This document shows positions 1,068-49,300 of a DNA stretch of 64,000 nt, in pieces. Origin of the DNA: Crossaster papposus (taxonomy: Eukaryota; Echinodermata; Asteroidea; Velatida; Solasteridae); contig JBAIAA010000102.1 of NCBI GenBank assembly GCA_037893245.1, forward strand, positions 1,178,001 to 1,242,000. Reading direction: 5' to 3'. The position numbers and the translations under genes are program-made. Positions within the stretch are counted from its first letter, which is position 1; every line of letters begins with the position of its first letter. Below the pieces are notes generated by a model. The model saw only the letters and a program-made list of their open reading frames with translations, made no database searches and was not told where the DNA came from.

Positions 1068-1376
1068 TTCGTTTGGTCGATGGTTCAAGCTCCAACGAAG
1101 GTCGCGTGGAGGTGTTTTATCAGGGTGCCTGGGGAACCGTATGTGATAATGGCTGGGACTCCAGCGATGCTCATGTAGTCTGCCAAGAACTGGGCTTCGG
1201 TGAAGCATCACACGCCTTCTCATACGCTTTCTTTGGCGAGAATTATGGTCTCGAGATATTGCTGCACAATCTTGATTGCAACGGCAACGAGAAAACGTTG
1301 TTTGACTGCGAGCATGGCGGTGTGGCAAATCATAACGGTCGGTGCAATCATTATGAGGATGCTGGTGTCCGTTGCA
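1068..1376 (+). CDS. SRCR1 exon (type X)
   Basis: 103 codons between acceptor tttaaag and donor a|gtaagt. It opens [17 protein letters not shown] and holds six cysteines, in [36 protein letters not shown] and VRC. The acidic pair after the first cysteine is DN, not DD. The usual FG.G.GPI.LDNV stretch is altered to [15 protein letters not shown]. The base left at the donor is A, so the split codon to the next exon reads A+CC (Thr). Upstream exons are not in the window. Confidence 0.92.
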
Positions 1377-4300
1377 GTAAGTTCGCAGTTCATTTTCCCC
1401 TAGATTTAACCCTATTTTTATAGCTTCAAGTTAGTGTGTTTGTGCTTTTTGGGTGTGGCACCCTGAAAAATAGATTTTCAAATTGAATAGATAATTTTCT
1501 AGCATTGTATTTGTTAGACATCACACGACAAAATCGGCCAATAATGAATTTTAACTTTTGTTTTAAGAGCGTCCCGCTCTTAATTTGTGGGGTGCCTATA
1601 GTATGCGCATGTATGTGCATGAACGTTGAACAATTGAGAGCAATATAGTTAACTATTGATATAAAAATGTTCACTGTTGTGATTCATGTATACAACACAT
1701 ATAGGGGACAATATAGGGCGTCAACAATTGGGGTTCCACAATTAGAGGAATTTACTTCGCTGTGAGTATTGACGTACATGATAGTTCGCTAGCGTGTGTG
1801 CAATACATGTATTGTGTGCGCATATGGTACGATACCACTAAACCAATCGCACGTACGTATACACATCATGGCATGTTAGCGGCTCGGACCTGTCAATGAC
1901 CTAAATTAAAACAACATTTCACAAGTCTATAGCTAGTTAAATTTGTCTTGATTTTCCCTCAAAACGACTCTCATAGCCAATATTCGTCTTAAAGACGGCC
2001 ACGTCCGTAATGAGGGTCGTGTTGAGGTCTTTCTCAACGGTGAATGGGGTACGGTGTGTGACGACTCCTGGGGACTAGAGGATGCTCAGGTGGCTTGCAG
2101 ACAGCTTGGCTTCCCTGGTGCCCTAGATGTGACCCAAGGCGGTGCTTTTCCAAGTGGAATGGGGCCAATTCACTTAGCCGGCCTGATGTGCGCCAGTGGG
2201 GACTCGAGACTAGACAGTTGTCAGCAGGGCCAGATTGGAGTTGAAAACTGCACTCACTATCAGGATGCAGGCGTCGTCTGCTCTCCTGCGGGTAAATAGT
2301 TCTCTGCAAATCCCTTTAATGTCAGTATTGTCATAAATCATTGATTACTTTTCCTTGATAGAAACTCAAACATTGTTTACATTTGTTCTTGGTAGGTCTA
2401 TATTCTGGGGCACCTAATTTGTGAATTTGATATAGAAGGGCATTATAATTTTGCTGATGCAAGGAATCGTCTAACTCGGTGTGTTTGTAAACCTGAACAT
2501 TTTTTGAACGCTTATATTGCTCCCACTAAAGCCATGTTCGCACTGGACTTAAAATGATAAAACGTACCTAGACGATGGGTCCTTCTCCCATTTTAAGTCC
2601 AGTGCGGACAGCCCAGGACGTTTTCCTCTCAGGTACTTCTCCCGAGTCCAGTGGGTACTTCTACCGGCCAACTGCTGCCCGGGAAAACGTCCCTGGTCCC
2701 TTTTCCCCCAGACGATAAGTCCAGTGCGAACAGCGCGACTCGGTAAAAGCGTCTCAGGAAAACGTTCACCCGGCTATCCAGTGCAAGGTCACGCTATACA
2801 AGGCACTGCGCATGCGCTCTTTGCATTGTTTACGTGCGGGCACGCTGATGCATGCAAATGCGCGCGAATGGGTACACCGGGGTCAATGCAGAAAGGTCAC
2901 GCAAAGCGCCCTCATGAGTCATTATAATGACAGCTCGGCTACTTCTCCCACGGTCTCGGTAAAATTTTCCCGTGTCGAAAGTCCAAGTGCGAACAGTGGT
3001 CACATTTGACCATTTTTTATTTGACCATCGTCTCAGTAAAACCTTCCCCAAAATAAGTCCAATGCGAACACGGCTTAAGAGTGGGCATGTCACTCTTTTT
3101 AGACTGGTCCTCTATATGCCTCCCACAAAGAGTGGACATAATCACTCTTTTTAGACCGGTCCTTTGTGGCTCTTCCAAAGAGTGAACATGTTACACTTTT
3201 TTTAGACTGTTCCCTTATGGCTATTCCAAATAGTGGACACATGTAACTCTTTTTAGACTGGTCCTACATGTATATATGGCTTCTCCAAAGAGTGGACATA
3301 TGTCACTCTTTTTAGACCGGTCCTATATATGGCTTCTCCAAAGAGTGGACATATGTCACTCTTTTAAGACCGTTACCTTATACTTTGTATGGCTCCCCCA
3401 AAGAGTGGACATGTCACTCTTTTTAGACCGGTACTTTATATGGCTCCCCCAAAGAGTGGACATATGTCACTCTTTTTAGACCGGTCCTATATATGGCTTC
3501 TCCAAAGAGTGGACATATATCACTCTTTTTAGATCGTTCCTTATATGGCTCCCCCAAAGAGTGGACATGTCACTCTTTTTAGACCGGTACTTTATATGGC
3601 TCCCCCAAAGAGTGGACATATATGTCACTCTTTTTAGACCGGTCCTATGGCTCCTCCAAAGAGTGGAAATGTCACTCTTTTTAGACCAGTCTTATATATG
3701 GCTCCTCCAAAGAGTGGACTCGTCACTCTTTCTAGACCGGTCCTTTATATGGCTTCTCCAGTAAGTGGACATATGTCACTCTTTTTAGACCGGTCCTATA
3801 TATAGCTTCTCCAGTAAGTGGACATGCCACTCATTTTAGACCGTTCCCTTATATGGCTCCTCCAAAGAGTGGACATGTACGTCGCTCTTTTTAGACCGGT
3901 CCTTTATATGGCTTCTCCAGTAAGTGAACATATGCCCCCCTTTTTAGACGTTCCCTTATATGGCTCCTCCAAAGAGTGAACATTTCGCTCTTTTTAGACC
4001 GTCCTATATATAGCTTCTCCAGTAAGTGCATGGACATGCCACTCTTTTTAGACCGTTCCCTATTGGCTCCTACAAAGAGTGGACATGTCGCTCTTTTTAG
4101 ACCGGTTCTTTATATGGCTTCTCCAGTAAGTGGACATATGTCACTCTTTTTAGACTGTTCCCTTATGGCCCTGTCACACCAGAGCGTATTAGGCCAACGC
4201 GTTAATAACGTGTTGTAATTTTGGCAACACGCTGGCAAACGCTGACCAACGCTAGGCCAGCGTTAGCAACACGCTGAGCGCGTTACTCACACGCTGGGAC

Positions 4301-7300
4301 ACGCTGCCACACGCTGAGGAAAACAAATTTTTTCAACATACCTACAATTTCAAGCGTTTGCCAGCGTGTGACTGCACACGCTGGAGGCGCGCAGGAAGGT
4401 CGTTACTCACGCGTCGAACACGCTAGACGATCGTTATCAACCCACTACTCACACGCTGGCGTACGCTGGCGATGGCCCTGTCAAACCAGACCGTTTTAGG
4501 CCAATGCATGAGTAGCGCGTTAAAAATAGTTGATATGCTGGCAATCGCTGAACTTTCACAGAAAAAGTCAAGTGGAACTGTGATTTCAGCGTGCCCATGA
4601 TAACAGGTTCATAGCGTATGCCAGCGCGTGAGTAGCGTGTGAGGAACGCGCTCATTGTGTGAGGAACGCATCACTGATTTACAGCGGGTCGCCAGCGTGT
4701 GAGTAGTGGGTTGGTAACGATCGTCTAGCGCGTTCGACGCGTGAGTAACAACCTTTCTGCGCGCCGCCAGCGTGTGTAGTCATACGCTGGCAAACGCTGA
4801 ACATTTTTGATATGTTGAAAAATGTATTTTTGCCTCTGCGTGTGACAGCGTGTTCCAGCGTGTGGGTAACGCGCTCAGCGTGTTGCGAACACTGGCCTAG
4901 CGTTGGTCGTTTACCCGCGTGTTGCCGAAATTCCAACACGTTACTCACGCGTTGGCCTAAAACGTTCTGGTGTAACAGGGCCATTACTGTAGTAGCCCGT
5001 CGGCTTTTTATACAACTAATCATGTGGTCGTTGCAGTACGCTGGGCAGTCGTTCATCAGTCCTCAAGCGCGTTACTAACGCGTATACTCATGCGCTGGCG
5101 AATGCTATGAACCCGTTATCAACGCGTTATGGACAGGCTGAAATCCTGGTTCTACTTGACTTTTTCTGTGGAAGTTTAGCGTTTGCCACCGTATCAATTA
5201 TTTTTAACGCGCTACTCACGCGTTGGCCTAAAATGTTCTGGTGTGACAGTGAAAATATGGCTCCTTCAAAGAGTGGACATATGTCACCCGTTTTAGACCG
5301 GTCCTATATATGGCTCCTCTAAAGAGTGGACATGTCACTCTTTTTAGACCGGACTTATATATGGCTCCTCCAAAAGGGTGGACTCGTCACTCTTTTTAAC
5401 CTATTTTAACCTATAAAGATCGGTCCTATGAATGACTTCTCCAGTAAGTCACGTCACTCTTTTAAGACCGGTCCTATATATAGCTTCTCCAGTAAGTGGA
5501 CATGCCACTCTTTTTAGACCGTTCTCTTATATGGCTCCTCCATACAGTGGACATGTGTCACTCGTTTTAGACCGGTCCTATATATGGCTCCTCCAAAGAG
5601 TGGACATGTCACTCTTTTTAGACCGGTCTTATGGCTCCTCCAAAGAGTGGACTCGTCACTCTTTTTAGATCGGTCCTATATATGGCTTCTCCAGTAAGTG
5701 GACACATGTCGCTCTTTTTAGACCGGTCCTTTATATGGCTTCACCAGTAAGTGGACTTGCCACTCTTTTTAGACCGTTCCCTTATATGGCTCCTCCAAAG
5801 AGTGGACATGTCGCTCTTTTTAGACCGGTCTTTTATATGGCTTCTCCAGTAAGTGGACATGTCACTCTTTTTAGACCGGTCCTATGGCTCCTCCCAATAG
5901 TGGACATGTTACTCTTTTTAGACCGGTCCTATTTTTAGACCGGTCCTCCAAAGAGTGGACATGTCACTCTTTTTAGACCGGTCCTATATACTGTATGGCT
6001 CCTCCAAATAGTGGACATGTCGCTCTTTCTAGACCGGCCCTTGATGCTAGGAGTCCACTGGGCCAGCGCCAGTTGGTGCCAGTTTGCGCCAATGCAATTT
6101 GCTGTGGCGCCTAGTGTCGCCAATAAGGTGCCTAGTGGCGTGTAGTGGCTCAAACTGCCTCCCAACTGGCTCGTGGTGGCCCGTAACAGCACCAAATTTG
6201 AATGTGGCGGCAAGAAAATTTCAAAATGTTTGAAATTTTCGTCGCGCCATTTGCATCGAGCAATCAGCGCAAAGTGTCCGCCAAGTGGCACAAATGGCGC
6301 AAACATATTGCCCTTTGGCGCAAACAATCCGCCTATTGGAATTCACTGGAATGTAATGGCGCGCGCCAAGTTGCGCCAATGAGATTTCGCGCCACATGGC
6401 GCCATTTGGTAGCCGATGGCCGGGTAGCCGATGGCCAGTATTTATATAGTCGGCAAGTAGCGCCAAGCGGCGGCAAGTTCAAACCAATTTGGCGACCTTT
6501 GGCACAAACTAGTCACCAAGTGGCGCAAAGTAGCTCGTGGTGGCCCGTAACGGCACTAAATTTGAATGTGGCGGCAAGAAAATTTCAAAATGTTTGAAAT
6601 TTTCGTCGCGCCACTTGCATCGAGCAATCAGCGCCAAGTGTCCGCCAAGTGGCACCAAATGGCGCGAACATATCGCCCTTTGGCGCAAACAATCCGCCTA
6701 TTGGAATCCACTGGAATGTAATGGCGCGCGCCAAGTTGCGCCAATGAGATTTCGCGCCACATGTAGTAGAGATGTTGTTCATACAGCAGCTGAGGAGGGT
6801 CTGAACCAGGTAGCCGATGGCCGGTATTTATATAGTCGGCAAGTAGCGCCAAGCGGCGGCAAGTTCAAACCAATTTGGCGACCTTTGGCACAAACTAATC
6901 ACCAAGTGGCGCAAAGTAGCCGTCTATTGGTGCGAATGGCGCCAACAGGGTGAATTTTGGAATCAAATGGCCGTGTAAAGGCGCAAACTGGCGCAACATT
7001 TTGGAGCAAGCCGGGTGGCATTTGGCGCACGCCATATGGCACCCAGTTTATTCCACTTGGTGACACATACCGAGCGGACATTAATTCGGCGCCACAGCGA
7101 GCCACTACGCGCCAATCACATAATCTTTGGCGCGAACTGGCACCAACTGGCGCTGGCCCAGTGGACTCCTAGCATAAGTGGACATATGTCACGCTTTTTT
7201 ACATTTTACATTTAGACAGCTAGTATTAAGGTGCATTACGTGGCATGCAAGTAAAACAAATCATTTACAACCCGTAAAGGTATATAAAATAACAAGAATT

Positions 7301-10300
7301 ATTTTACATTTATGTTTAAAGTTCGCTTGGAAGACGGGTCAAGCTCGAACGAGGGACGAGTAGAGGTATTTTGGGACGACGATTGGGGAACCATCTGTGT
7401 CGATTTTTATTACTGGAGCATCTCTGAAGCACACGTGGTTTGCAAAGAACTTGGGTTTACGAGAGCTGTGCAGGCTCTGATCTTAGACTTCATACCGGAC
7501 AGTCTGCTGTCAAATGTATGGTGTACAGGGAATGAAGAGACCATTTTTGCTTGCAGACTGCAGAGAACGATCTTTTGCTCCCCTTGGGAATGGACTTCAG
7601 GAGTACGATGTGGTAAGTTTCCATACAACCATCTGCTAATATGTGAGGTGTTCTGGCCAAATGAGACGGAACTGGGCACAGGCCGCAGTGGAGACAAATT
7701 CAAAATAGTGAAGGAATGTGTTTTTCTTTTTAATTTTCTGATTTATTGCTATTCTGATTTGTTGTAATATTTGTTATGTCTATAAACCATATTTGTAAAG
7801 AATTAGTAAGAAAGTAGTGGAATAAAAGCGTTTTTAAGGAAAATAAATTGGCCTTTCTTCTTATCACATGAGCAAAACTCGAAACTTTAAAGTCTTTTCC
7901 TTAACACTTTTCTTTGGCAACATGTCAGTAAATGCACATTTTAAACACGCATACATGTAACTTATTAATGTCCGATTGAAACAGAAATCACATCCAAATC
8001 ACATCCAAATGCTCCGAATTCACATCCTCTTCTGAATTTACATCTCGGGTTTTAAAGTCATTCAAATGCAAATTCACATCCACAGGATGTGAATTTGCAT
8101 TTTGATGGCCTTATCCAAGATGTGAATTTAAAGCATTTGGATGTGGTTTTGGAAATCTTTTGTTGAAATCAAATCCTGCTACTGGCCGTGTCTGCTTTGA
8201 ACACAAAATCACTTCATGCCCATTCTTAGTGTCAGAGAGATTGGTACTAAACAGACAAGATTGGCGTAGGAATTAACTAAGCATGTATGTTCCAATGGGC
8301 AGTACTTTAAGTACACAGGCCAGAGCCATTATCGCCAAAAAAAACCTGGGATATAGTTACGCTGCGTTTTGTTTACATGCATCCTTTTCGTTTCATTTAA
8401 TTTTATTTCAATCAACATTTATTTCCATAGTGCCAAAACATTAATATACATAATGACATTGTGATGCGATTAAGCAAAATGAGATAAAGTCTGGAAATCT
8501 AATATTGAAATTGGCCAGAATAGTATGCTGGGATTGGGTATTTCAGGATTGTTTTTTTGCCAAAATTAATTCCGAGTAAAAAATATTCAACCCTATTTAA
8601 AAAAAGGAAAATAAGCACTTGATCATGACCCAATTTCATGGTGTTGCTTTAGAGGGTGAGTTTTCACGAGGCACGCGAACGATTCGCGAAGGATGCGAAT
8701 GCCGAAAAAATGGCAAAGTCCAACATTCGTATTTTAGGTTCCAAACGATCGCTAAACCCGTGGGGGTTTGTCAGTGGTGTAACAATAGAAATATTTAGAA
8801 AGTTTCTACATTTTGTTATTTTCAAGTGGATTTTTTGTTTTCAAAACTTTATAGAACCCTGTGACAGCAGACCGTGTATGAACGGTGGAAGTTGTACGAG
8901 CTCCAGTGCTGGTTTCAATTGTTTCTGCCTGAAAAGTTACAGCGGCCCAACGTGCGAATATGGTAAATTAAGATAGTAGACTGCTATAATGTTTAATGGT
9001 AGGATACACCATTTTGCAGATATCAATTTTTTTACAACCGAATTATTACGAAATATTTTATTTCTTTAAAAGTGAATGATGATTGTAGGCATTCGGCAAA
9101 ATAAATTCGCTAGATATCCTGTAATTGTTTTGAAAAATGTAGTTTTATAAAAACAAAAACACGATCGCATGAAAAAAACAAAAACAACAAAATAAGAATA
9201 ACTGCCTGACGCCAGTTGAAAACGATTGCCGTTTTTCTTGCTTTTCTCGTCATTCATGATTTTAAAATTCGGTCAGGTCAGTTAAATGATACTTACTATA
9301 ATACAATTTAACCATCTAAACCTACTCATTCATGATAGTTCAAGCAATTAACAATGGTGTTTCCAACCTTTAAAATAATATTAGATGACAAAATAATAAA
9401 AAAAAGAACTGTATCACTCATGTAAATTACTGTTCGTAATGTGGAGAAATTCTTGTCCTTGGATTATGGTCCCCCTCAAGCACTCATTACAGAAGTTTCT
9501 GGACAAATAAATGAAAGTCGAAGCGATAATGGAAAGAGGCTGTACATAAACATAATACTGGTCCCTCTGGCAAGACACTTAACTACAATTGCCCTTCTGC
9601 ACCCAGGAGTACAAATGGGTACCTGTTGGGGGTCGAGGTCGATTTGAGCGTTGATATCGGCTGCCATGTTACCCAGGGCCTGATGAACGGGATAATAATC
9701 AGATAACGCAGTGAGCTTCGTTATAGGCGTATACGCGCGCATTATAAATGCGCATTTGTATTATCCCCCCTCTGAATTTATACTACAAAGTCCTTCTTTA
9801 ACTGTTAATTTTCTAGATAACATTTAATAGTGATGGCAAATTATACAAATTAAAAGAATAGATTATCTCAACAAATAAAATCCACATTGTCGGTGTCTGT
9901 TTTATCTTTGAGACGTACCCAGTACCAAAAGTAAAGAAGCGTAACAGAGGGATAATTTCAAATGGCTCTATTAGTAGCCTAGATCACTACATGTAGTTTC
10001 GCAACTTAAGCAAAATCACACATAATTTAATTTTTATATACATAATTGTTGAACACATGAACACATGTTTTGTTGAAGTATTGAAACGTTAATAGAAGGG
10101 AAAGAAAGTCGGTAATAAAAAACCTCAGCTCAATTAAAAACGACTTAATTACAGATGTATCTATGCAACAACCAACAAAATGCTTTAAAACAGCCAGTTA
10201 GAATTTTGTAGCTGTTTGTAACTGAAATTTTACTGTCAAGTTTCAGGAAAACAAATTACCAACCTTTAGTGTTTAATAACTTATAGTAAAGCTCTTTTCA

Positions 10301-13300
10301 ATGCATAATGTTTTGTTTCCCTTTTTTTAAAAAGCCAAACTTCGTCTTGTAGGCGGAAGCCACTATTACGAAGGCCGACTTGAGATCTCTGTAAACGACA
10401 CGTGGGGTACAGTTTGTGGGGACCTGTGGGGATTGGAAGATGCTCAAGTAGCCTGCCGACAGCTGGGCTTTCCCGGTGCAAGGGAGGCTTTACCAGGTGG
10501 ATCGTTCGGAAGTGGAACAGGGCCGATTTATCTTGATGGTCTTCTCTGTAACGGCGACGAAAACAACCTGGAGAGTTGCGGACATGCCGGCATTGGAATC
10601 CATGACTGCAACCATACGCAAGACGCCGGCATTGAATGCCGGACTGCAGGTATGTATTAGAAACTGTTTTTTGTTCAGATTTGTTTTTTAAAGAGCCATT
10701 AAGTGTACAGAGAAGTTGATTTTGAGCTAAGAGTGCGTTCGTTTAGCTCACACGGGTTCGATACAGGTTAGCCCTGGGTCTTTGGATTAGCTCTGATCAG
10801 ACTACCCACAGTCATTAAAAAGCGATGCTTTATACGTCAAAATACCAAGTGACAAGCGTGCCGGTGATATTATAGTAACGCAGAATGTATTACGCAACAA
10901 GCATGACGGTATTATATCTGGTGGGTACAAAAGAACAAACAAATCAAAGCAACTTGTGTAGTATAGTGGTTAGAGAAAAGCTTTGGTGTTCAGAAGGTTC
11001 GTGGTTTGAATCCGTCCAAAAACTTATTTTTAATATCCTGCAAAAATTTGTACTCGAAAAGTTGTTTTCTTTTAAGGGAAAGACAAAAATCATTGTTGAA
11101 GTCTACTATACTGGCCTCGCATAATAGCGTGCAAATTATAACACTGTTAACACTTTTGTAACGTAGCATTTTGATGTTAAAAGCCTTGCTTATTAACGAC
11201 TGTGGGTAGTCTGGTGCTTACACACTTGCCACCCATGTCAATTGTTTGGAGGTCCACAGTACAAAGGAAATGCTTGTATACCGGTACATGATAGCTTCCC
11301 GGTGTGAATAAACGCAGGCACTTCATTCTCCCAGGACTAAATACTAAGTTGCATCACAAAAATAATTTAATATTTTGTTCTTTGTTTCCCCTTCTTCTTG
11401 AAGTTCGTTTGGTAGATGGATTACCAAATGAGGGGCGGGTCGAGGTCTACGCTGGCGGTGAGTGGGGAACCATCTGTGATGACCGTTGGGACTTGACGAA
11501 CGCTGCCGTTGTCTGCCGGGAATTAGGCTTGGGTGGCGCTTTGAAGGCTCTGCCTTCAGCTGTCTTTGGAGTAGCCGGTTTCGAGACGCCGATACTGCTG
11601 GATAACGTCGCTTGCCTCGGGCATGAAGACACAGTTCTCGAATGCCGACATTTGGGAATTGGAAATCATAACTGCAGGCATTATGATGATGCAGGAGTTC
11701 AATGTGGTGAGTTGGTTCTTTGTAAACAGAATGAACTTCCAGTGTAGAACTGGAAATTCCATTTCGACGTCCATATCAGTTTATGATTTGTATTTATTGG
11801 CCGTCATTTCAGCTCAAATTTTATTTTGGCAATTTCATGAACCTCTGGTTTAAAATGTGACCGGCTCTGGCAAAACCCTACTCTTCATTGCATTTCCCAT
11901 TTTCTTGAAAAAGACAAATTCAACCTCAATGAAATCTGTATTTCCGAATTATGTATTTCCGAATTATGTGAAGTGTGTTGAATAAACGGGGGAAGTTTCA
12001 AGACCCAACTGCTTTTGGCTAATATAATAAAGAGTTTTTCTCAAAATATATAACTTATTTAAAGTGCCACAATTTTGTCAGATTAGATACAAACTTCTCG
12101 AAACATACCTTAAAGGTAGGATACACCATTGGTAATTGTTTGAATATCATGATTAAGTGGATTTTATAGTAAATATTGTTTAACTACCTGTCCAAAGTTT
12201 TACAATCATGGATGCTGAAAAAAGTTTTAAAAAACGGCCTTCGTTTTTACCTTCGCAAATCTTTTTCTTTTGAAGTCGATTTTTTGTCGATGTCGATGCC
12301 TAGAATCATTATTTACTTTTAAATAAGTAAGATATTTCTTAATAACTGGTAATAAATTTCTTTGATATCTGCAAATGGTGTATCCTACCTTTAAATACAA
12401 GCTTGTGGTTTATTTATACATCAAAGTGATACCAGAATCCCAATTTTAAAATTGTAATCAAGAGTTGTTTTTAGCTAAAGCTGGTCACAAATGTGTTTTA
12501 TTGCAATCTAGGTCGACTTCGTCTCGCTAACAGCAGCGTTGAAAGCGAAGGCCGGTTAGAGGTCTTCCTCAACGGTGAATGGGGTACGGTGTGTGACGAC
12601 TCCTGGGGACTAGAGGATGCTCAGGTGGCTTGCAGGCAGCTCAGATTCCCAGGCGCCCTAGAGGTGACCCAAGGAGGGGCCTTCGGAAGTGGTTCCGGCC
12701 CAATACACCTAGATAATGTTGCTTGCTCTGGTTCCGAAAGTAACCTGGAGAGTTGTCCACACGATGGGATCGGGATCCATAACTGCACGCATAGCCAGGA
12801 TGCAGGCATTGTGTGTAACCTATCAGGTAAAACATTGTCACAGGCCATTAGCCTGGGGGGTTGGTCGGTGTCAAATGGGAATAATGCTTTGTGGTATGCC
12901 GTGGCCTCGGGGTCTGGAGCATTAAACTTGCGGTCTGTGGGTAAAGGTACAGGTTGTGGGTTCGAGTCTGGCCTGAAACTATGGTGCATGTGCTCTTGGG
13001 TAGGGCACTTGCTTCACTCCACCCAGGAGTAAATGGGTACCAGTGAGGGGAGAGATGGTTGTTATTAGCTGCTTTGTGCCAAAATGGCAGCATCGAGCTG
13101 TATACTCCCCAGGGAGCTGAGATGATATTTGGAATGTTTCATTCACCCAGGGACCGGGGTAATAGTGATACAGCGCATAGGGACCTAGCTTAGGGTGACA
13201 TGGGCTACCAGTATACATGTATAAGAATGGTTCATTATTATTATTATGCACCCCTGTATACATGTAGTAGGAAAATATGATACGTACAGCATTTCAGCGG

Positions 13301-37300: not shown

Positions 37301-40300
37301 GGTGGTGAGGAGACAATACTCGAGTGCCCCCACAGGGGTGTGGGAGTCCACGATTGTTCACATTCCGAAGATGCTGGGGTCCAATGTGGTAAGATTTAAA
37401 AAGAAAAAAGTAAAGTAGAGTCTGTCCCGAGCCAATGGACGTACCTTATTCACAAGGACGCCATTTTGGTTGTGTTCCCTGAATGTATTTTATCAATTGT
37501 GACACGATCAAGCCGAATCAGTCGGATGTCGGTGAATCCCAAAAATGCACTGTATTCTTCGTTGGTATTTAAACAAATTTACATAACTCGACAACAAAAC
37601 AGATGCCCTCTTTGAAACTACATGAACACTCATTTTTTGACCGGGGCCGACATCCAACTGATTTCGCTTGATCGTGTCACAATTGTGAACTGTTGAATGG
37701 GATGGGGCCAGACTATTTTTGCATTCTAGCCTCGCTTTCAGTATTGATTTTACTGTGGCTAAAACATGCTAAAGGATGTTTAATCACAATTTCTTTAAGC
37801 ATTTATCAGAAAATAATTTGTGGTTTATAATATTATGTCAGTGCTTTAATTTCTATCTGTAAGTTCCCAAAATAAAGATTTTTACCTCACTTTCAATTAA
37901 AATGGCAGACTCGTTAAGAAAATCCATATGGCTCATCAGGCCGGTGTTTAAAGGGGGAATAATACCTTTTGCAGCTATCTAAAACGTAACCAACCAAAAT
38001 ATGGTTGAAAAGCTTTAATACTTGTTAAGATATCAATGATTCTAGAATCCCTCTAGAATCCCTGTAAAAACATTTTGATGCGTCGCAAGGAGGCACTTTT
38101 GAAATATCCGCAAACTGTGCGCAAGCATTTAAACGGCGCAATATGCTTGGGGGCTACTATTGGTCTGTTCATTCGTGTGTGATACGCGTGTAGCTGCAAT
38201 CTCTTCTACTCACTTGTTCCCAACATATATAACTCCACATAACCCACTGCCAGTGGGTATGTCAATAAACCTATTTCTCTTAATAATAAACCTATTTCTA
38301 TTTCAGAACCTTGTGGCAACAATCCGTGCAGGAATGGTGGAACTTGCACAAGTACCAGTACTGGCTTCACTTGCGAATGCCCTGCAGGATATACTGGATT
38401 GAATTGTGACAATGGTAATTATCAATGGTTTTACTAGGCGGCTTACCGTAGAGTGGGGGATCTAAAGCCGTGTTCCCATTGGACTTTTGGGGGTTAACAT
38501 ACTGCAATATTTCTGTAGAAAGATAAAATTTAATTCAATTGGAACGCGTGATAGACTAACATCCCTGTCAACTTACCGCGGCGGTGATGTAAAACTGCAA
38601 GGCTGAAAATGGTCATGAAAAGTTATCAGGGATGCTGAAAAGTCCAATGGGAACAGCCTCGCCCTGTAGACAGATAAAATAAAATTTGATTGGAATGCGC
38701 GGTAGACTAACTTCCCTGTCAACGTACCGCGGCGGTGATGTAAAACTCCGAAGCTGATGGTCGTGAACAATTTTCAGGGATCGATACTGAAAGGTCCAAT
38801 AGTAAAGTACGGATTTGCAGTAAATCTTAATCTACATGTAATAGCCCAAGCTTCATATCGCACAGGTAACAAAATCTGCATTAAAGTTCACTTTGATTTT
38901 GTTTTGGGTATGAAGCTGATGTCCGTCTCGTCGGTGGCAGAACCTATAACGAAGGTCGACTTGAGATCTTCCTCCTCGAGGAATGGGGTACGGTGTGTGA
39001 CGACTCCTGGGGACTGCATGACGCCCAGGTGGCTTGCAGGCAGCTCGGCTTCCCCAATGTTAGCATGGCAACCCCGGGTGGCACCTACGGGAGTGGAACA
39101 GGACCGATTCATCTTAGGAATGTCTCATGCACTGGACTGGAAGACAGCGTGGAGAGTTGCCCGAATAGCACAGACTCAACGCATCGATGTAACCACACCC
39201 AGGATGCAGGCATCGTGTGTTCACACGCAGGTATACATTCACTGTCGGCAATAACCAATTCTGTGTAATTGTTTTTGTTCATATCAAAGCTAATCTTAAT
39301 ATATACAAAATTGCTGCTCTAACTTTGACTTAATAAAGTTGGTGTGTTCATTCTTCTTTTCGTAACGAATTTTGGAGGAAATATAATGTACTCTAACAAA
39401 TAAGTCTACAGCACTCTACTTACCCTGTAGAGCGAATACTACATTTGCATTGTTCCCTATGCCGGCAGGCAAATTGCTAAGAGTTTTACATACAATAGCG
39501 CCCCCTAGTGTCCTATCCCCGACGCCCTGTGACATGCGCACTTTGTTAGCGTCCTCTTTTTTTCTCTTTTTTTCTCTTAGCGCAGGCGAGGTACGACGTG
39601 AAATTTTCAGCTCCTGATTTTCACGTTTTTTTTAAACCGATACCTCATTGCTGTGAGAAAACTATAAGATAAAGTGAGTGTTGTAGAGTTTATAGAGTGA
39701 TATTTGAGTGAATTATTTTAGTGAAGTTAAATTTAAATGAGTAAATCTAGGAAGTTGGGGAGGACTGGGTGTGTCGGTAATGGAGGGACTTACATCCCAC
39801 CAGACAAGCCCAAGTCCTCGGGGGACTGCACCGGTGACGGTACGTTACTGCGGCAGCAGTCCCCTAGTCAGCTCCATCAGCCACTGTCGGCTGTCGGAGC
39901 TGACGGATCCGTTGACCGAGCGGGGGGCCGTACAACCCCATCGTCTCCGGTCAGTATTCACGGGTCCGCCCAATTGAAGGGGAAACGCCCCGGCAAGACA
40001 AAGGTATCGTCTGGTGCCGGGGCAGTACCCAAGAAGGGACGTACGGCCAAGAGTGGCTCCGCTACGGAGCGCACCGTGCCCGTCTCAGACCCGTTTACGG
40101 GGCACACACAGCCCGAGGGATTACCCCTCCACGGCTCAGTGCACCCGGGCCCTCCCAACCCCGTGGCTACCACGGGGCCTGGGGATGGGCTTTTATACGG
40201 CCAGATTGACCGTGCAGCGCCCGCCTATGCTATCGGGCTTGGAGCGCTGTCGGCCGACCAAACCATTCAGCGGGCTTTGGGGCAAGACTCCTGGGGTTCC

Positions 40301-43300
40301 CCCGGGGTTTTATGCTCCGAGGGCCCTACCTATTCATCGGAATTTATCCGTTGTTCAGGCATTCCCGCTGCCCGATTGTCGTCCGAGCCATTCTCGGAGA
40401 CAATTCGGAATCAATCTTCAAGAAGTCTAAAAAGAAACGCCGTTCCCGCCGCTCATCTACGAGTTCTAGCGGGTCCTCGGGACGGTCACACCGTGGTAAA
40501 CGCCACAAGAGTGGTGACCAAATTTCCCGCGAGGATTTTTTAGAAGCGTTCCATTCACTTGCGGCCTCGTTGTCTGGCCGACGAGGGAATCCGGGGCGAG
40601 GCCCATCCGACTCACCCACCGGCCATTACGGTCACGGTTGGATGACACCGGGCCAACGGGACATACCGTACACGGTTAGCCGTGCACCGGAGTCCCCCCC
40701 AGAATTGCAGCTCCCACCCACCAGTCATCACGACCAGGGTGGGTTGACTACAGACCAGCGGGCACGGCCGTACACGGAGAGTCGTGCACCGGCGTCCCCG
40801 CCAGGCATTAGCCTACACCCGTCGGCGTCCTTGGGGTCCGATCGTAGATCGGTACCGGGACACCGTGACGGCGCTATCTCGTCCCTGGGGCATGGTTCCC
40901 TTTCCCCGGTGACATCTCGCCCCCCGTGCTCGGACGATTCCGCAGACGGAGAGGACGAGTTGACCCTCTATATGCAGTGCTTGTCGGTGTCGGAAACCGA
41001 ACTACGCCTGGTCCAGCGGGACATGATCAGAGTAATGGATCTTCCCGCTGACAACGGGCCTCCCCTTCCTGAACGTCAGTCGTTTAAGAAGCGATCGGGA
41101 CAGGCCACAGACGCGGCCAAGGCTTTTCCCACAATGCCATTGGACCGTGTGTGTGTCGAACGCATGGACGGGGTAATGCGCGCAAAGACATGGAGTGCCT
41201 ATTCTAAGCGCATGGACTCTTATTTTCGATTTCCCTCAGAGGATTTCGCAAAATATTTTTCCACCCCGATCTTGCCGGACTCGGCCACCGACAAACTCGC
41301 CGCTGACAGAGGATCGACGTCCTCCAAACTCGCCTTTACGGACAAGAACCGTGGGAAACTGGAGGACTTCGCCCAAAAAATGGACTCGTCGGCGCGCATG
41401 GGTATGCGTGCAACTTCGTTTCTTCTTCTCCTATCCGAATACCTGGCGTTAGGATGTGAAGAAGATTCGGCGGTACCAGCCGACATGATGGTGGCGGCTC
41501 TCCACTGTCTCGATAACGGCTTATGCTCCGTTCTCGACCAGTTCATTAAGGTGGCGACCTTAGCAACATCAACGCGACGCGCCAATGTGCTCGACGCGCT
41601 TTTCCTCCCTTCACAGGGAGCACGTAAACGCCTGGACAGTCTCCCCTTTCGGGCGCGGACAAAATAAACTTGAACAAGCCGCAAGCCGCCATCTCCAAAC
41701 CCGCGGATAAGACAAAGAAGCAAGCTTCGTTTGTCATTCCCCGGCGTCGCCCCCCAATTAGGGCGGCCCGTGGCAGCTTTCGTGGCCGTGCCGACATAAA
41801 CCCGGCCGGCCCACGTTCTTCCGGACTACAGCGTTCCCAGTCGGGGCGCGGTTTCCGGGCGCCCCCTCCCCGGTACACCGGGGCGTGGCGCAAGTGACTT
41901 GCTCGTCTCCGGGCGGCCTCCCGCCGACGGACCCGTGGGAGGCCGCCTTCAGAAATTCTTCGGGTCCTGGGGTCAGGTCACTTTCGACCGATGGGTTCTC
42001 GAAACGATCAGCAGCGGTTACGCACTCGAGTTTACGAGGACCCCCCCGTCGGACATGATTATTCGGCCGACGCCCGTACCGTCCGACACGGCAAAACGCC
42101 GCTCCCTCGAGGGGGAGATAAACGCTCTCCTTCTAAAGAGAGCGGTGCGTTTGGTCCCCCAATTGGGGACTCGGGCGGGATTCATGTCAGTCTTCTTCTT
42201 GGTCCCCAAGAAGGAGGCTGGCATGTGGCGGCCAATATTAAACCTGAAACCCCTCAACAGTTTCATACGTCCGAAACGTTTCCGTATGGAGACGTTGAGG
42301 ACCATCCTTGAATCAATCATAACGCCCGCGTGGGTAGCAAGTCTAGACCTGAAGGACGCGTATTTCCACGTACCGATCAAGCCAGAGCACCGCAAATTCC
42401 TACGTTTCTAGTACAACGGTGTCCTGTACGAATTTGCAGTGCTCCCATTCGGACTTTCCACTTCGCCGCGGGTGTTCACTCGGATTGTAAAAACGATCGG
42501 AGCGACACTGCGCAGGCAGGGGGTCATGATTTTCATGTACCTCGACGATTGGCTGGTCGTGGGCCGTTCCCGGAAGGAGTTAGAAGCGGCGCTCCAACCG
42601 ATCTCGGATTTCTCATCAATACCGAGAAATCCCACCCAATACCCTCGCAGGTTCCCACCTTTCTAGGTGCGTCCCTACTAGATCTTCTTGAGGGACTGGC
42701 CCGCCCATCGGAGGACCGCCTGCTGAACCTTCAACAGTGCGTATCCCTCTTCCTCCCGGCGGTAGTGGCTCCGGCTCGAGCCTGGCTCAGGCTGTTGGGC
42801 CTTATGGCCAGTATGGTAGACTTGGTGGTTTTTTGCAGGCTGAGGATGAGACCAATTCAACTTCACCTGCTGTCTTTCTACAAGCCCCACTGGCACCCGA
42901 TCAACTATCCGGTGCCTACTACACCCTGGCTAGTCCCCCACCTTCGTTGGTGGCTAGTCAGGGCCCATATCATGCAGGGCCGTGTTTTCCGTCCACCCCG
43001 TCCGTCGTTGACAATCACGACCGACGCGTCAGGTTCCGGCTGGGGAGCTACCCTCCACCCATGACAGGTTGCGGGCGTGTGGAGCCTTCAACACCGATCG
43101 TCCCACATCAACGTCCTGGAAATGCTGGCAGTTTTCAACGCGCTACAGCATTTTCAGTCGGACGTCGGGGGACGAGCAGTCCTGGTAAGATGCGACAACG
43201 CCACTGTAGTGGCATACGTCAATCACCAGGGGGGTACTCGGTCGGGCCGTCTGTGTGCTCTAGCGTGGGACCTCACCCTCTGGTGCACACATCACGGAAT

Positions 43301-46300
43301 AACACTGTCGGCAGTCCACATCGCAGGCGAAAAGAACGTCATAGCCGATGCCCTCTCCAGAGGATGGATCGCCCTGACGGAGTGGTCGTTGCTCCCACAA
43401 GTAGCTCGATTACTCTTCAAGATGATCGACCGGCCCCATGTCGACTTGTTCGCCTCCCGAGCGAACAATCAGCTGCCAGTTTATTGCACAAGGGTCCCAG
43501 ACCCCGATGCATGGCAGATCGACGCGCTGACGGTAGGATGGGACGGCCTACTGGCCTATGCCTTTCCACCCATCTCCCTCATTTCTCGAGTACTGACCAA
43601 GGTCGAGCAGGAGGACTGCCGAATCCTCCTCATAGCCCCGTTCTGGCCCCGCCAGCCGTGGTTCCACCGACTTGTCAGGCTCCTGGTTCACCGCCCAGTG
43701 GTTCTGCCTCGACCAGGAAGATATACAGTAGCCGGCTACGCCATTTCTTTAAATGGTGCAGACGGCAATCCCTTCGTCCCCCCAATACTTCTGTAGGGGA
43801 GGTGGGGGATTTCCTCCTATACCTTTTTGACAGCGGTCTCGCAACGGCCACAGTAAACAACTATCGGTCGGCCGTCGCTGCGATTCATCTCGGTTTTCCG
43901 GACGGTTCTTCCGTCTCGGATAACCAACCGATCAGCCAACTGATCAAGGGGATGTTCACGACTCGCCCCCCAGTACGCAAACTAGTTCCATCCTGGGACC
44001 TCTTCAGCCTGCTATCTACATTGGCGAAAGCCCCTTACGAACCGATGGATAGTTCAACTTTGTTGCAACTCTCCATCAAAGTGGTTTTTCTGTTGGCGGT
44101 CGCTACTTCCCGACGGCGTAGTGAAGTACACTCGTTATCGGTGGAGGCAGGACACATCCGGTGGGAGCCGGGGGGTGTCCGCCTGGTCCCTGCAGTCGGT
44201 TTTCTTGCAAAAAAACAGTCTGAGGCTTTTACGCCCCCAGACATAATGCCTGTTTGCATTAGCAGGCCTTTCTACACTTTTAAAAAGTGGTTTCTGTTAT
44301 TGCTCAAATTGCTCGCTCCAGTTTTGAGCGAAAGGTCATAAATGTTCATTTATTTGGGTCATTGACAGGTATGCATTGCAGGTCCGCGCTGCGATAGTAC
44401 AGGTTGCTTGAGCGGTACCGTACCATTCTATATGCACACACAGTACACATCCGCAAATTTGTAGAGACATCTCTTTTTTCTCGTGTACAAATATTTGGGA
44501 CTAGAAACAAATATATCTCTTCAAAATGCTCTTATTTTAACAATGGTTAATTTCTTGGGTTAAAATATTATACACTGTATTTTACCCTATCCAAACACTC
44601 TACCCCAAACACTCTACCCCAAGTTTTTGAGTAAAATCCACCTACCTACCTACATGAATTTATCTATATACCCAGTGGAGACCTTTTGACTCCCATTGTC
44701 CCCATTGTGTTCAGGTCTCCACAGGATACCAAATTAAAACAAATACAGACACATCTACACAATTAGCTTTACCTTCCATACGTAGCTTCCCCCAAAACAA
44801 TTTAACCTTTGATTTTGGGCCTTTCAGCTGTTCCTCTTATTTTTTCTATATAAAACCCTAACCAGTTTTGCCTCTAAAGCTCTTTTTCAGAGAGGGCAAA
44901 ACGAACTGTGAACCTGTCCCAGTCCACAAACTGTAACCCCTTTCCTCATCCTGTGGACGTCAATTGTTCGGTCCACAGTGCGTATGAAATACTAACTCGC
45001 ATAATTATGTGTAAAAACCTTTTGGCGTTGACACTCTTTTGTTTGTACTTTTTGGGAAGGCCTCCCATAGGTTTTGTACACGATTTTCAATCATAGACCC
45101 TATTGTCCTCTATTGTTCTACGTCTACTATTTTAATGCGGATACAAACTCACATACATACAGTGTACATACATAAATGTATGTCTATACTCGCAGCATTG
45201 TAAATACCTCCAATCGTGGACCTCCCTATAGTGTCCTCTTGTTTGTATTTTATCTTTTAGGGAAGACCTGTATGTTTAGTTCTTGTTTATGAATCTTGAC
45301 AGTGAATGTTTGTCAATTATGGACTATATATTGCCCTTAAATGTTCAACGTCCACTATTTAAATGCGTAAATGCACAGGTTTTGTTTTTCGTGCGATGTC
45401 TCATTTGAAAGCTCATAACAAATACAATGCTAGACAAATTATCAATTCAATTTGCAAATCTATTTTTTAGGGTGCCACACCCAAAAAAACACAGACACAC
45501 CAACTTTAACCAGTTCGCGCCGGAATTATTTTAACATCACCGAGCCGACGCGCAGGATAATTTTTAATGAAACTCGTTCCGAAGTAGGTTCAGGCCGGTG
45601 TGGACGGTAATTCTGTCCCCCGGTAAAATTGTCCGGGGGAACAGAATTACCTAGGTAAAAGTGTCCCCCTGGAGCTGTTAATTCTGTCCCCCTCCAGTTT
45701 ATTCTGTTCCCTCTCTAGGTAATTTTGTCCCCCAATGTTCCACACATAAGTGGTTATTTTGATGTTATTTCAATGAAAAGCCCACATGGTATTTATTATT
45801 TGGACTTCTGTTCCCTTCATCGATTTATCAAAATAAAAATAAAAATATAAATAACTGTATTAATTAAATCAACCGATCTACGTTTCTGCGCGAAAGGGAA
45901 ATTAGCGGTAATCAGTATTTTCAGACTTCTTGCACGCGTACAAATTCTGTATACCCAGCACGAATGTGGCAGCACTTTTGACCACCTGTAATTTGTAGTA
46001 CGCTACACATCCTACAGTCTGCCACAAATGATGCACCATGAAGGGGTGAACCTGTACTACACTGGTTGTTGCGTGTAGTGGGTGCTAGACTTGTGACGTT
46101 GCACGGGACAATTTTACCAGGGGGACACGTTTAACATTGGGCAGGGAGATAGAATTACCTGGAGGGGGACAGAAATACCTAGGTAAATGTGTCCCCCCGG
46201 ACAGATTTACCGGGTCACGGGCTGGTAAGTCTGTCCGGGGGGACACATTTACCAGGGGGGACAGAATTACCTTTCACACCGGCAGTACCGGGAAGCACAC

Positions 46301-49300
46301 CCACGCATTTCCGGCCTTGCGTACTGCTGACAGACATTTCCGGCCTTTTTTCGTGGCGTGTTTATACCTCATCCGTTTATATCCGTTGCGTTTATATTCG
46401 TCATCCGGCGCGAACTGGTTAAACACAATAATTGTTTTTAATTTGTTTTCTGGTGTTTATGTTTCAGTTCGTTTAACTGGTGGAATGACGTCTGCAGAAG
46501 GCCTCGTTGAGATGTTCATTGGCGGCGCATGGTTATCCATCTGCAACTCTGCCTACCCAACAAGTCAAAGTTCATGGAATTTGACAGCTGCTAACGTCGT
46601 TTGCTGGGAGCTTGGCTTCTCCGCTGCAGCGCAGGCTCTGAATTGGGATAATTATGATTATGATCTAGATCCGCCGGTCGCGTCGCTTAATGGTTTGCAG
46701 TGTGTGGGAGACGAACGTTCTCTCTTGGAGTGCACATTCTCGGTTGGGTTTCCCTACTGTCGGCCCTGGGAAAATGCAGGTGTACAATGCGGTAAGTTAA
46801 AGCCCACTCACAACCAGGTTACAGCCTAGCCGCGACCGAATAAATGTTGTAATCGCAGGCAAAACGTAGAAAGAGCGCGTGACTGGTTGCATAGGTCGTG
46901 GGTGATCATTGAGATCGAGCAAAATCAGTCTTAGCAAGGTTAATAGTCATGTTCAAAACTCTTGACTTGCGATTCCAAATCGTAAGAGGTCGCAGACAGG
47001 TCTTACATGGTCGTATTAACTTATAGTGTATTTAAAGTGCGCCCTATCTGTTGTTGCACATATTGGCTACCAGGCTTGCAACGTGGCAGAATAAATGAGG
47101 TGAGCTCGTTACAAAATCTATGTCAGAATAATAATAATAATAATGAACATTTATAAGGCGCCGGTATCCGCCAAGCAAGACGCTCATGGCGCACAATACA
47201 GATTGTTTTTAATCACAAAACCGTGAGGTAAACATGTGGGTTTTTAGAGAAGATTTAAATACAGACAATGATGATGACTGACGAATTCCAAAAGGTAATT
47301 TGTTCCAGAGTTCGGGAGCGGCGCGTGAAAAAGACCGGTCTCCCAAAGAGTGATTGGTACGGGGAACCGTAAGCTGTAGCGCTCTGGCTGAACGAAGACT
47401 ACGTGCTCGGGAAATTAAACTTGGAAAGTTGTTGTTTTGAGCCACACAGGATAAATTCAGACTTCTTGTCATTCAATTTGAGACTGTTTGTCATCATCCA
47501 TATCTTGATCTCATCAATGCAAGCCTCGAGATTCTCAAGGGCAGACAAAGCATTGGGTTGAGATGGAGTGAAGGATTGATACAGTTGTATGTCATCAGCA
47601 TAGCAGTGATATTGAAGGTTGTATTTCTGGATGATCTGGCCGAGTGGTAAAATGTAGATGGTGAATAATAGGGGACCACCAACAGATCCTTGTGGAACAC
47701 CACAGTCAAGGGAGGCAGGGGCAGATAATTCTCCATTCAATATCTCACAAAGTTGCGACGAGGCTGTTTCAATAGACATATAACATTGTCATTATGGCAT
47801 AACTCACCAAGTTATGCCATAAGATGTGGCGTACGTAACTAACACATCATGTGTTTTAGTAGGCCTAGTTTTAGGTGGTGTAAGTCGTTGCTATGTGTCG
47901 TAAAAATGGCGTTGCTGCTGCTCGTTCAACGTGAACATCGGAGAGCGCTTTGCCGTGAAAGATTGTTCCCGTGACGGAACAAATTCCCTATATAAACTTG
48001 AAGACGATGAATTCATATGGCGGTATCGGTTTTCTCTGGATGGCATTTCCAGAATCGTTGAAGATTTACCAAGTTTTGGAGCGTCCTACAAGGGTATAAT
48101 ATCCCAGAAAATCCAGAGATACGGCAAGCTTGATTTGCTTCAGGCATACTTGCACATGACGAGTCCAGAAAGTTACTGACAATGAACACACACGAGGGTC
48201 TGTACTACATTTCGCCATCGCCTTTCTGCACCAGCCATTTGGCAGAGAAGTATGAGGCAGATACTACCTGGAGTCCAATGGATCTTGGATGAAATGATCA
48301 TCAACGGTTGCATTAATGAAGAAGACCTCAGTAATTTTAGGAGGGTCCTTGACGTTCTGAAGACCCGTAGACTGTGCTTGAACAAAGCAAAATGCAAATT
48401 CTTCAAGCGCAAGGGGATCTTCAGTGGGCACAAGGTTTATCCATGGAGGCCTGAACAAAATCTAAGATAAAAACGTCCATGCAGTCAGAAATGATCCATG
48501 ACCCAATAGTGTGAGCCAATTGCGTCCATTCTTGGGCCTGGTGAATTACTACCATCGATTCCTACCCAACTTGGCGACTGAGCTGCATCCACTGAATGAG
48601 CTTCTGCAGAAGAACCACAAATGGGTATGGACCCTCTAACTTGTAAGATGGCGTTCCAAAAGGCAAAGTCCTTAACCCTAACTCTCTAGGGTGTGTGCAC
48701 AATTATATTGATTTTATAGGATTTGGGAGCTGGGGTTAGGGTTAATCACAGCATATGAGGTCCTGACAAACTATAATTCAGACCTCCCAGTAAAACTAGC
48801 ATGTGACGCTTCACCCTATGTCTTGGTGCTGTTATGTCACAATGTCATGCCTGATGGTGCTGAACGCTCTGTCGCCTATGCATCATGTACTCTGATGACT
48901 GCAGAACGTTTACTCTCAAACTGACAAGGAGGCACATCGAGTACAAAAATATTGCAAAACACCTCAACACTATAATGACGGGCTATCCAGATGAATATCA
49001 TGCCGTGATACTGTTAATCATTGCGAATATATTTTCTGTTTATATTTTATTTTGTGGACTCGGTGTGTTATTAGTCTTCACTTGAGTCGTGTTGAGTCTT
49101 CTGACGAGGGACTCATTTAGGGGTCTCTTTTTGGTGATATGAGTCATCCTGATGGTGCAAATGTAAACAGAAAGTTGCAAATTTGGTTTTCAAGTTGTGC
49201 AACTCAATCAGTGATTTATTGGCATCATATTTCTTGGCGATTTTGCTTAAAATTGGTCCCTAGAGCCAAGACATGATTATAACACACCTCCAAAGCTTAC

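Follow-up and report, generated by a model that had tools for sequence, protein, structure and literature searches.

A sea star gene in which two SRCR subtypes alternate and a five-exon block has been copied

An SRCR gene with two alternating domain types

A 64,000-nt stretch of the genome of the sea star Crossaster papposus (contig JBAIAA010000102.1, positions 1,178,001 to 1,242,000; hereafter the window) carries on its forward strand a gene with 17 SRCR exons, S1 to S17, which alternate between two subtypes, X and Y. Our analysis showed that a five-exon unit, Y-X-EGF-Y-X, was copied whole within this one gene, a clear case of such copying. The best explanation that we can offer for the array as a whole, to which we give a little less than an even chance, is that putative Ca2+-binding X domains alternate with Y domains that would act as glycan-capped spacers, as judged from a calcium-site residue and from N-glycosylation sequons on the same loop.

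All 17 SRCR exons lie between AG/GT splice sites in phase 1-1 and follow each other as X, Y and so on to a final X without exception, as the initial annotation of this DNA had it. S1 (X, 1068–1376), which probably closes a block begun outside the window, is followed by four blocks of Y, X, EGF, Y and X exons. The first consists of S2 (1977–2291), S3 (7322–7612), EGF1 (8855–8962), S4 (10335–10649) and S5 (11404–11706), and the second of S6 (12512–12826), S7 (14141–14443), EGF2 (15607–15714), S8 (18412–18726) and S9 (22087–22386). The third holds S10 (22727–23041), S11 (25311–25613), EGF3 (26755–26862), S12 (30603–30917) and S13 (33761–34060), and the fourth S14 (35777–36097), S15 (37089–37388), EGF4 (38307–38414), S16 (38916–39230) and S17 (46468–46791). 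The EGF exons fall after S3, S7, S11 and S15, also as first described, and the Y exons are indeed 315 nt long in seven of eight cases, S14 having 321 nt. Beyond what had been described, four CCP and three EGF exons continue downstream in the same phase to position 62191, in the order CCP, CCP, EGF, CCP, EGF, CCP, EGF.

Exon limits were predicted from splice signals and similarity, with the S5 acceptor set at 11404. Ten of the 28 exons were submitted to a Pfam search and every one matched above the curated cut-off: SRCR for S3, S6, S7 and S17 (four of the 17; profile PF00530, 57.9–113.1 bits against a cut-off of 26.1), EGF for EGF2, EGF4 and EGF6, and Sushi for CCP1, CCP3 and CCP4. Each of the seven EGF exons measures exactly 108 nt, and an AlphaFold2 model of S6 alone reached a pLDDT of 87.3 and a pTM of 0.82. 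Linkers are short and fixed: measured from the last cysteine to the next RL, they are three residues from X to Y (four junctions) and four from Y to X (eight junctions), while two residues separate X from the first EGF cysteine and five separate EGF from Y (four junctions each).

It could be asked whether these exons come from several genes, or include dead ones, rather than forming one working gene. S3 and S17 are divergent X domains (38–53% identity to other X), and the S16–S17 intron, at 7237 nt, holds retroelement open reading frames (ORFs) over about 4.6 kb, both of which would fit such a mixture. On the other hand, all 28 exons keep their splice sites, begin and end in phase 1 and have lengths that are multiples of three, their joining in silico yields a single open frame of 2257 codons with no stop, as the earlier reading of one gene requires, and pN/pS between recently copied exons is 0.34 (see below); we hold a mixture of genes, or the presence of dead exons, to be very unlikely. 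S3 and S17 share C-x-P-W-E where other X domains have C-x-H-x-E (S5 has D at the last position), and they group weakly, at 44/83 among the 17 domains and 88/74 with a bacterial outgroup, despite their different block positions.

The motifs first given for the two types proved approximate. The types themselves are real, but S5, S15 and S17 end in VQC and not VRC, the X core reads VVCRQLG in S7 and S11 and VICRELG in S9 and S13 instead of VVC.ELG, and the Y ends vary (SPA, RTA, NLS, DPA, TPA, SHA). In a maximum-likelihood (ML) tree of the 17 domains, X and Y lie on opposite sides of one branch with support of 100/99.8, and so do not mix, which is the outcome that the initial annotation had named as support. 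With 14 bacterial SRCR domains as outgroup, the Y clade received 99/99 and the X clade 92/95; with six CD163 domains, Y received 99/98 and X just 62/48. Both outgroup trees omit the near copies S10 to S13, and the CD163 set comprises six of nine domains, D6, D8 and D9 being left out. The 14 bacterial domains were drawn at random, one per ORF and after a length filter, from 46 nearly full-length domains (partial ones uncounted) in 30 ORFs of 26 loci in metagenome-assembled genomes (MAGs), which had been found by a genome scan with S6 and which served both as outgroup and as baseline. On average, two X domains share 54% identity, two Y domains 63%, and an X and a Y domain 46%.

The MAGs that encode these SRCR domains belong to Myxococcota, Gammaproteobacteria and other groups. 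Most of the domains have six cysteines, the calcium-site glutamate discussed below is nearly invariant in them, and up to seven domains were counted in one ORF (L002). A scan of viral contigs for relatives gave 21 pattern matches and no relatives.

Growth of the array by block duplication

Comparison of the window with itself revealed a recent tandem duplication, introns included, in which 12385–22587 (Y6, X7, EGF2, Y8, X9) matches 22600–34263 (Y10, X11, EGF3, Y12, X13), both on the forward strand. The breakpoints fall in the introns that precede S6, separate S9 from S10 and follow S13, and the duplicated unit is exactly five exons, Y-X-EGF-Y-X. This corrects the register X-EGF-Y-X-Y that had been assigned to the repeat. 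At the junction lies a 20-nt string (22580–22599) whose first eight nt align loosely to the right flank of the second copy; both the whole string and its last 12 nt are unique in the window. The reading frame survives the copying of a whole block because the exons are symmetric, with phase 1 at both ends.

The two copies differ by 264 substitutions in 8697 aligned bases (3.0%), a level that alleles reach in some marine invertebrates, and one could therefore suspect that in S10–S13 the assembly falsely shows a second haplotype as a duplication, the true gene having 13 SRCR exons here. Against this stand a window without any N, the uniqueness of the junction string and large insertions by which the copies differ (for example, 23770–25284 in place of 14033–14115); the remaining blocks, moreover, have the same order regardless. 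We consider an assembly artefact unlikely. Across the five exon pairs pN is 0.019 (19.5 changes) and pS 0.056 (17.5 changes), and the resulting pN/pS of 0.34, although from small counts, is consistent with purifying selection on the recent copies.

The initial annotation had proposed that the gene grew by repeated duplication of a five-exon block and that exons at the same position of each unit would group together. One such duplication is shown by the recent copies, for which the grouping by position is clear, while traces of older rounds, for which the two outgroup trees were examined as well, are weak for Y and unsupported for X. Among the Y domains, S2 groups with S6/S10 (75/81) and S4 with S8/S12 (83/91) in the ML tree, and same-position pairs resemble each other more than swapped pairs do (column bootstrap P 0.003), but in an exhaustive parsimony comparison of six Y domains the gain from grouping by position is a single step. 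Same-position grouping of X was not supported in the column bootstrap (P 0.66), and the position split ranks 15 of 35, though S5 joins S9/S13 at 57/85 in the ML tree. The X domains of blocks 1 and 4 run the opposite way (a share of 0.983 of the bootstrap values is zero or less), for which the divergence of S17 is the probable cause. For X and Y pooled, position grouping gave a bootstrap P of 0.084, and approximately unbiased (AU) tests rejected none of four position clades (p 0.15–0.50). One column that separates the two Y positions, Ya and Yb (T versus N after C7, the seventh cysteine of the eight-cysteine scheme), was dropped as a marker, since three other splits of the six Y domains do equally well in strict columns. 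Repeated block duplication is thus likely, but demonstrated just once.

This history bears on what the alternation can mean. In a random order of nine X and eight Y, perfect alternation would arise once in 24,310 times, a figure that loses its force because block copying makes alternation automatic. It had been suggested that X packs against Y or that each has a ligand of its own. The strictness of the alternation and the clear separation of the subtypes would agree with that, as would the short fixed linkers, which would bring neighbouring domains close together. Since block copying keeps any order, however, alternation is predicted anyway and is by itself no argument for packing, and no interface signature was found: only two columns in the alignment hold different residues in the two subtypes with at least seven of nine X and at least seven of eight Y alike. 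Packing or two separate ligands seem very improbable to us, and we propose instead to recast the idea of different ligands as one of binding versus capped domains, a distinction suggested by the residues described next.

A calcium-site residue differs between X and Y

In SRCR8 of SALSA, one exposed cation is reported at D1019, D1020 and E1086 and the other at D1020, D1058, D1059 and N1081, and mutation of D1019 or D1020 leaves three ligands no longer bound (PMC7043408). Likewise, Ca2+ is described at Asp186/Glu252 and Asp293/Glu359 of CD163 D2 and D3 (PMC12273918), and by numbering both glutamates occupy the position four residues after the seventh cysteine (C7+4). The corresponding residue in the window domains lies 66 residues from the preceding aspartate, which is the spacing of E1086 from D1020 in SALSA. 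This residue is acidic in all nine X domains (E in eight, D in S5) and an amide in all eight Y domains (Q in six, N in S8 and S12), with a one-residue insertion before the Q of S14. Among the 46 bacterial domains it is E in 44, D in one and Q in one. Because E prevails outside this gene, the Y condition is the departed one; X has kept the calcium-site glutamate (as aspartate in S5) and Y has lost it.

N-glycan sequons are concentrated in Y

The Y domains contain 19 N-x-S/T sequons in 834 residues, compared with 5.9 in shuffled sequences (none of 5000 shuffles was as high), while X contains three in 902 residues, compared with 4.4. With near copies removed, the counts are 15 and two. In the calcium-site loop itself, a sequon is found in six of eight Y domains, none of nine X domains and two of the 46 bacterial domains; it reads NCT in S2, S6, S10 and S14 and NHT in S4 and S16.

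A CD163 variant offers a parallel for a glycan at this place. R809T is reported to place an N-glycan on N807, which sits centrally in the multimer interface, and to keep CD163 monomeric (PMC12274614). As checked on the sequence, N807 directly precedes the seventh cysteine of D7 (C7-1) and R809T creates an NCT, identical in motif and place to that of S2, S6, S10 and S14. The combination seen in Y also occurs outside this gene, since CD163 D1 carries NCT together with Q.

Several observations weigh against reading X as binding and Y as capped. The full set of two aspartates plus E or D is present in five of nine X domains (S5, S7, S11, S13 and S15), the first site being incomplete in S1 and S9 (DN-E), S3 (VD-E) and S17 (NS-E), and both first-site aspartates are retained in four of eight Y domains (S2, S6, S10 and S16). 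In S8 and S12, themselves a pair of copies, the loop sequon is absent, and equivalents of all four residues of the second cation site (D1020, D1058, D1059 and N1081) are retained. Q and N are described as common cation-site substitutes that can bind cations (PMC7043408), and CD163 D6, which has Q at C7+4, is listed with bound Ca2+ (PMC12273918). The R809T glycan blocked self-assembly through D7, and ligand was still bound (PMC12274614). Finally, the loss of glutamate probably happened once, at the base of Y, and the contrasts in glutamate and sequons were noticed post hoc, on inspecting the alignment.

An alternative that we take to be quite possible, if somewhat doubtful, is that the alternation is a by-product: an ancestral Y-X pair diverged early, later duplications carried its order along, and the Y sequons serve folding, solubility or trafficking with no capping. 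Block copying, shown once, preserves order for free, and 13 of the 19 sequons in Y are found elsewhere than on the calcium-site loop. In other scavenger receptors, loss of both N-glycan sites of MARCO abolished surface expression, while N-glycan mutants of SR-AI reached the surface, some with reduced ligand uptake (PMC4758095). What a by-product leaves unexplained is that loop sequons and the loss of glutamate coincide in one subtype and on one loop, and that X stays near the shuffled sequon rate.

A proposed alternation of binding domains and spacers

The gene is best explained as coding for a large, probably extracellular mosaic protein, in which a single X and four Y-X-EGF-Y-X blocks come before the CCP and CCP-EGF repeats, and it was enlarged at least once by tandem copying of an entire block. 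X, with its acidic third ligand kept, may use bridging Ca2+ to bind ligands or partner chains, whereas Y, with the glutamate lost and in most cases a sequon on the same loop, may form capped, weakly binding or non-binding spacers. The arrangement found, with short fixed linkers and one EGF per four SRCR domains, would then set a binding face at every second domain. Judging from the family, the likely role would be multivalent, avidity-based binding of repetitive surfaces such as microbes or matrix, and in such a multivalent binder or agglutinin valence would change in steps of one block, that is, of two X domains. More generally, and more tentatively, receptor valence and spacing may be set genetically by the choice between calcium-competent and natively glycan-capped SRCR domains, four of the latter being capped at the NCT position engineered into CD163 against self-assembly, with Y-X-EGF-Y-X as the unit gained or lost. 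Long SRCR arrays occur widely among animals, but for few of them is it known which domains bind and what the reason for the repetition is; if the proposal is true, a sequence rule (glutamate kept or lost, same-loop sequon absent or present) would separate binding domains from spacers.

Comparison with known SRCR proteins

Block repeats of SRCR domains are already known from bovine WC1, whose order is a-b-c-d-e-d-b-c-d-e-d' (PMC2906472), and the present gene resembles the WC1/CD163 family in its long array with a repeated multi-domain order. It differs from the WC1 order as published there in having EGF domains and a strict alternation of two types, and from CD163 in its SRCR linkers of three or four residues, against eight in CD163 D1–D2, D2–D3 and D3–D4. 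In a tree without WC1, 13 window domains stood apart from six of the nine CD163 domains at 98/95.

Group B SRCR domains usually have eight cysteines and one exon per domain, and group A domains are encoded by two exons (PMC3100851). All 17 window domains have six cysteines, lacking C1 and C4 as in group A and not the eight of group B, yet each is encoded by one exon, as in group B and not by two as in group A; by these two textbook criteria they are hybrids, with group A cysteines and group B exon structure.

An SRCR array alternating with glycosylated spacers is also described for DMBT1/SALSA/gp340 (PMC3100851), the glycan being predicted in the present case, and the Ca2+-dependent SRCR binding site of that protein (PMC7043408) has a putative counterpart here in the residues described above. 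The DMBT1 spacers, or SIDs, are Ser/Thr-rich stretches of 20–24 residues with potential O-glycans and are not SRCR domains (PMC3100851). There are no SIDs between the SRCR domains of this gene, where linkers of three to five residues or an EGF exon are found. The present gene extends past the window, where counterparts of the CUB and ZP domains of DMBT1 may lie.

Among echinoderms, the sea urchin has expanded six-cysteine (group A) SRCR genes, a cluster in which each SRCR domain lies in one exon, with one exception, and EGF-like and Sushi among the commonest SRCR partner domains (PMC10855680), in all of which the present gene is similar. Duplication units in sponge SRCR genes are one or two SRCR domains, and the accessible portion of that account describes neither a five-exon Y-X-EGF-Y-X unit nor a capped/bare alternation for sea urchin or sponge (PMC10855680). 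A literature search that covered few subscription papers, and its sources in part, found no account in which bare SRCR subtypes alternate with capped ones.

Other elements in the window

The downstream part, 49547–62191, forms a second, smaller higher-order repeat on the forward strand, CCP followed by three CCP-EGF pairs, in the same frame and phase 1-1. It consists of CCP1 (49547–49738), CCP2 (51696–51884), EGF5 (53266–53373), CCP3 (54215–54403), EGF6 (59623–59730), CCP4 (61011–61199) and EGF7 (62084–62191); CCP2 is assigned by similarity to CCP3 and CCP4 and is 69% identical to CCP4. Within this part, the reverse strand bears a long reverse transcriptase ORF, open over 737 aa (55492–57705), which we take to be LINE-type. 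In the retroelement ORFs of the S16–S17 intron (39737–44341; GC-rich, 58%), an RNase H-like match (RVT_3) passes its cut-off, and matches to reverse transcriptase and integrase SAM-like families fall short of theirs; the element is presumably DIRS-like. The S2–S3 intron contains two arrays of a related 51-bp minisatellite, at 3087–4155 (about 20 copies) and 5255–6041 (about 15 copies). An Rfam tRNA match on the reverse strand at 53574–53646 (34.3 bits against a gathering threshold of 29), for which ARAGORN makes no call, is perhaps a tRNA-derived repeat.

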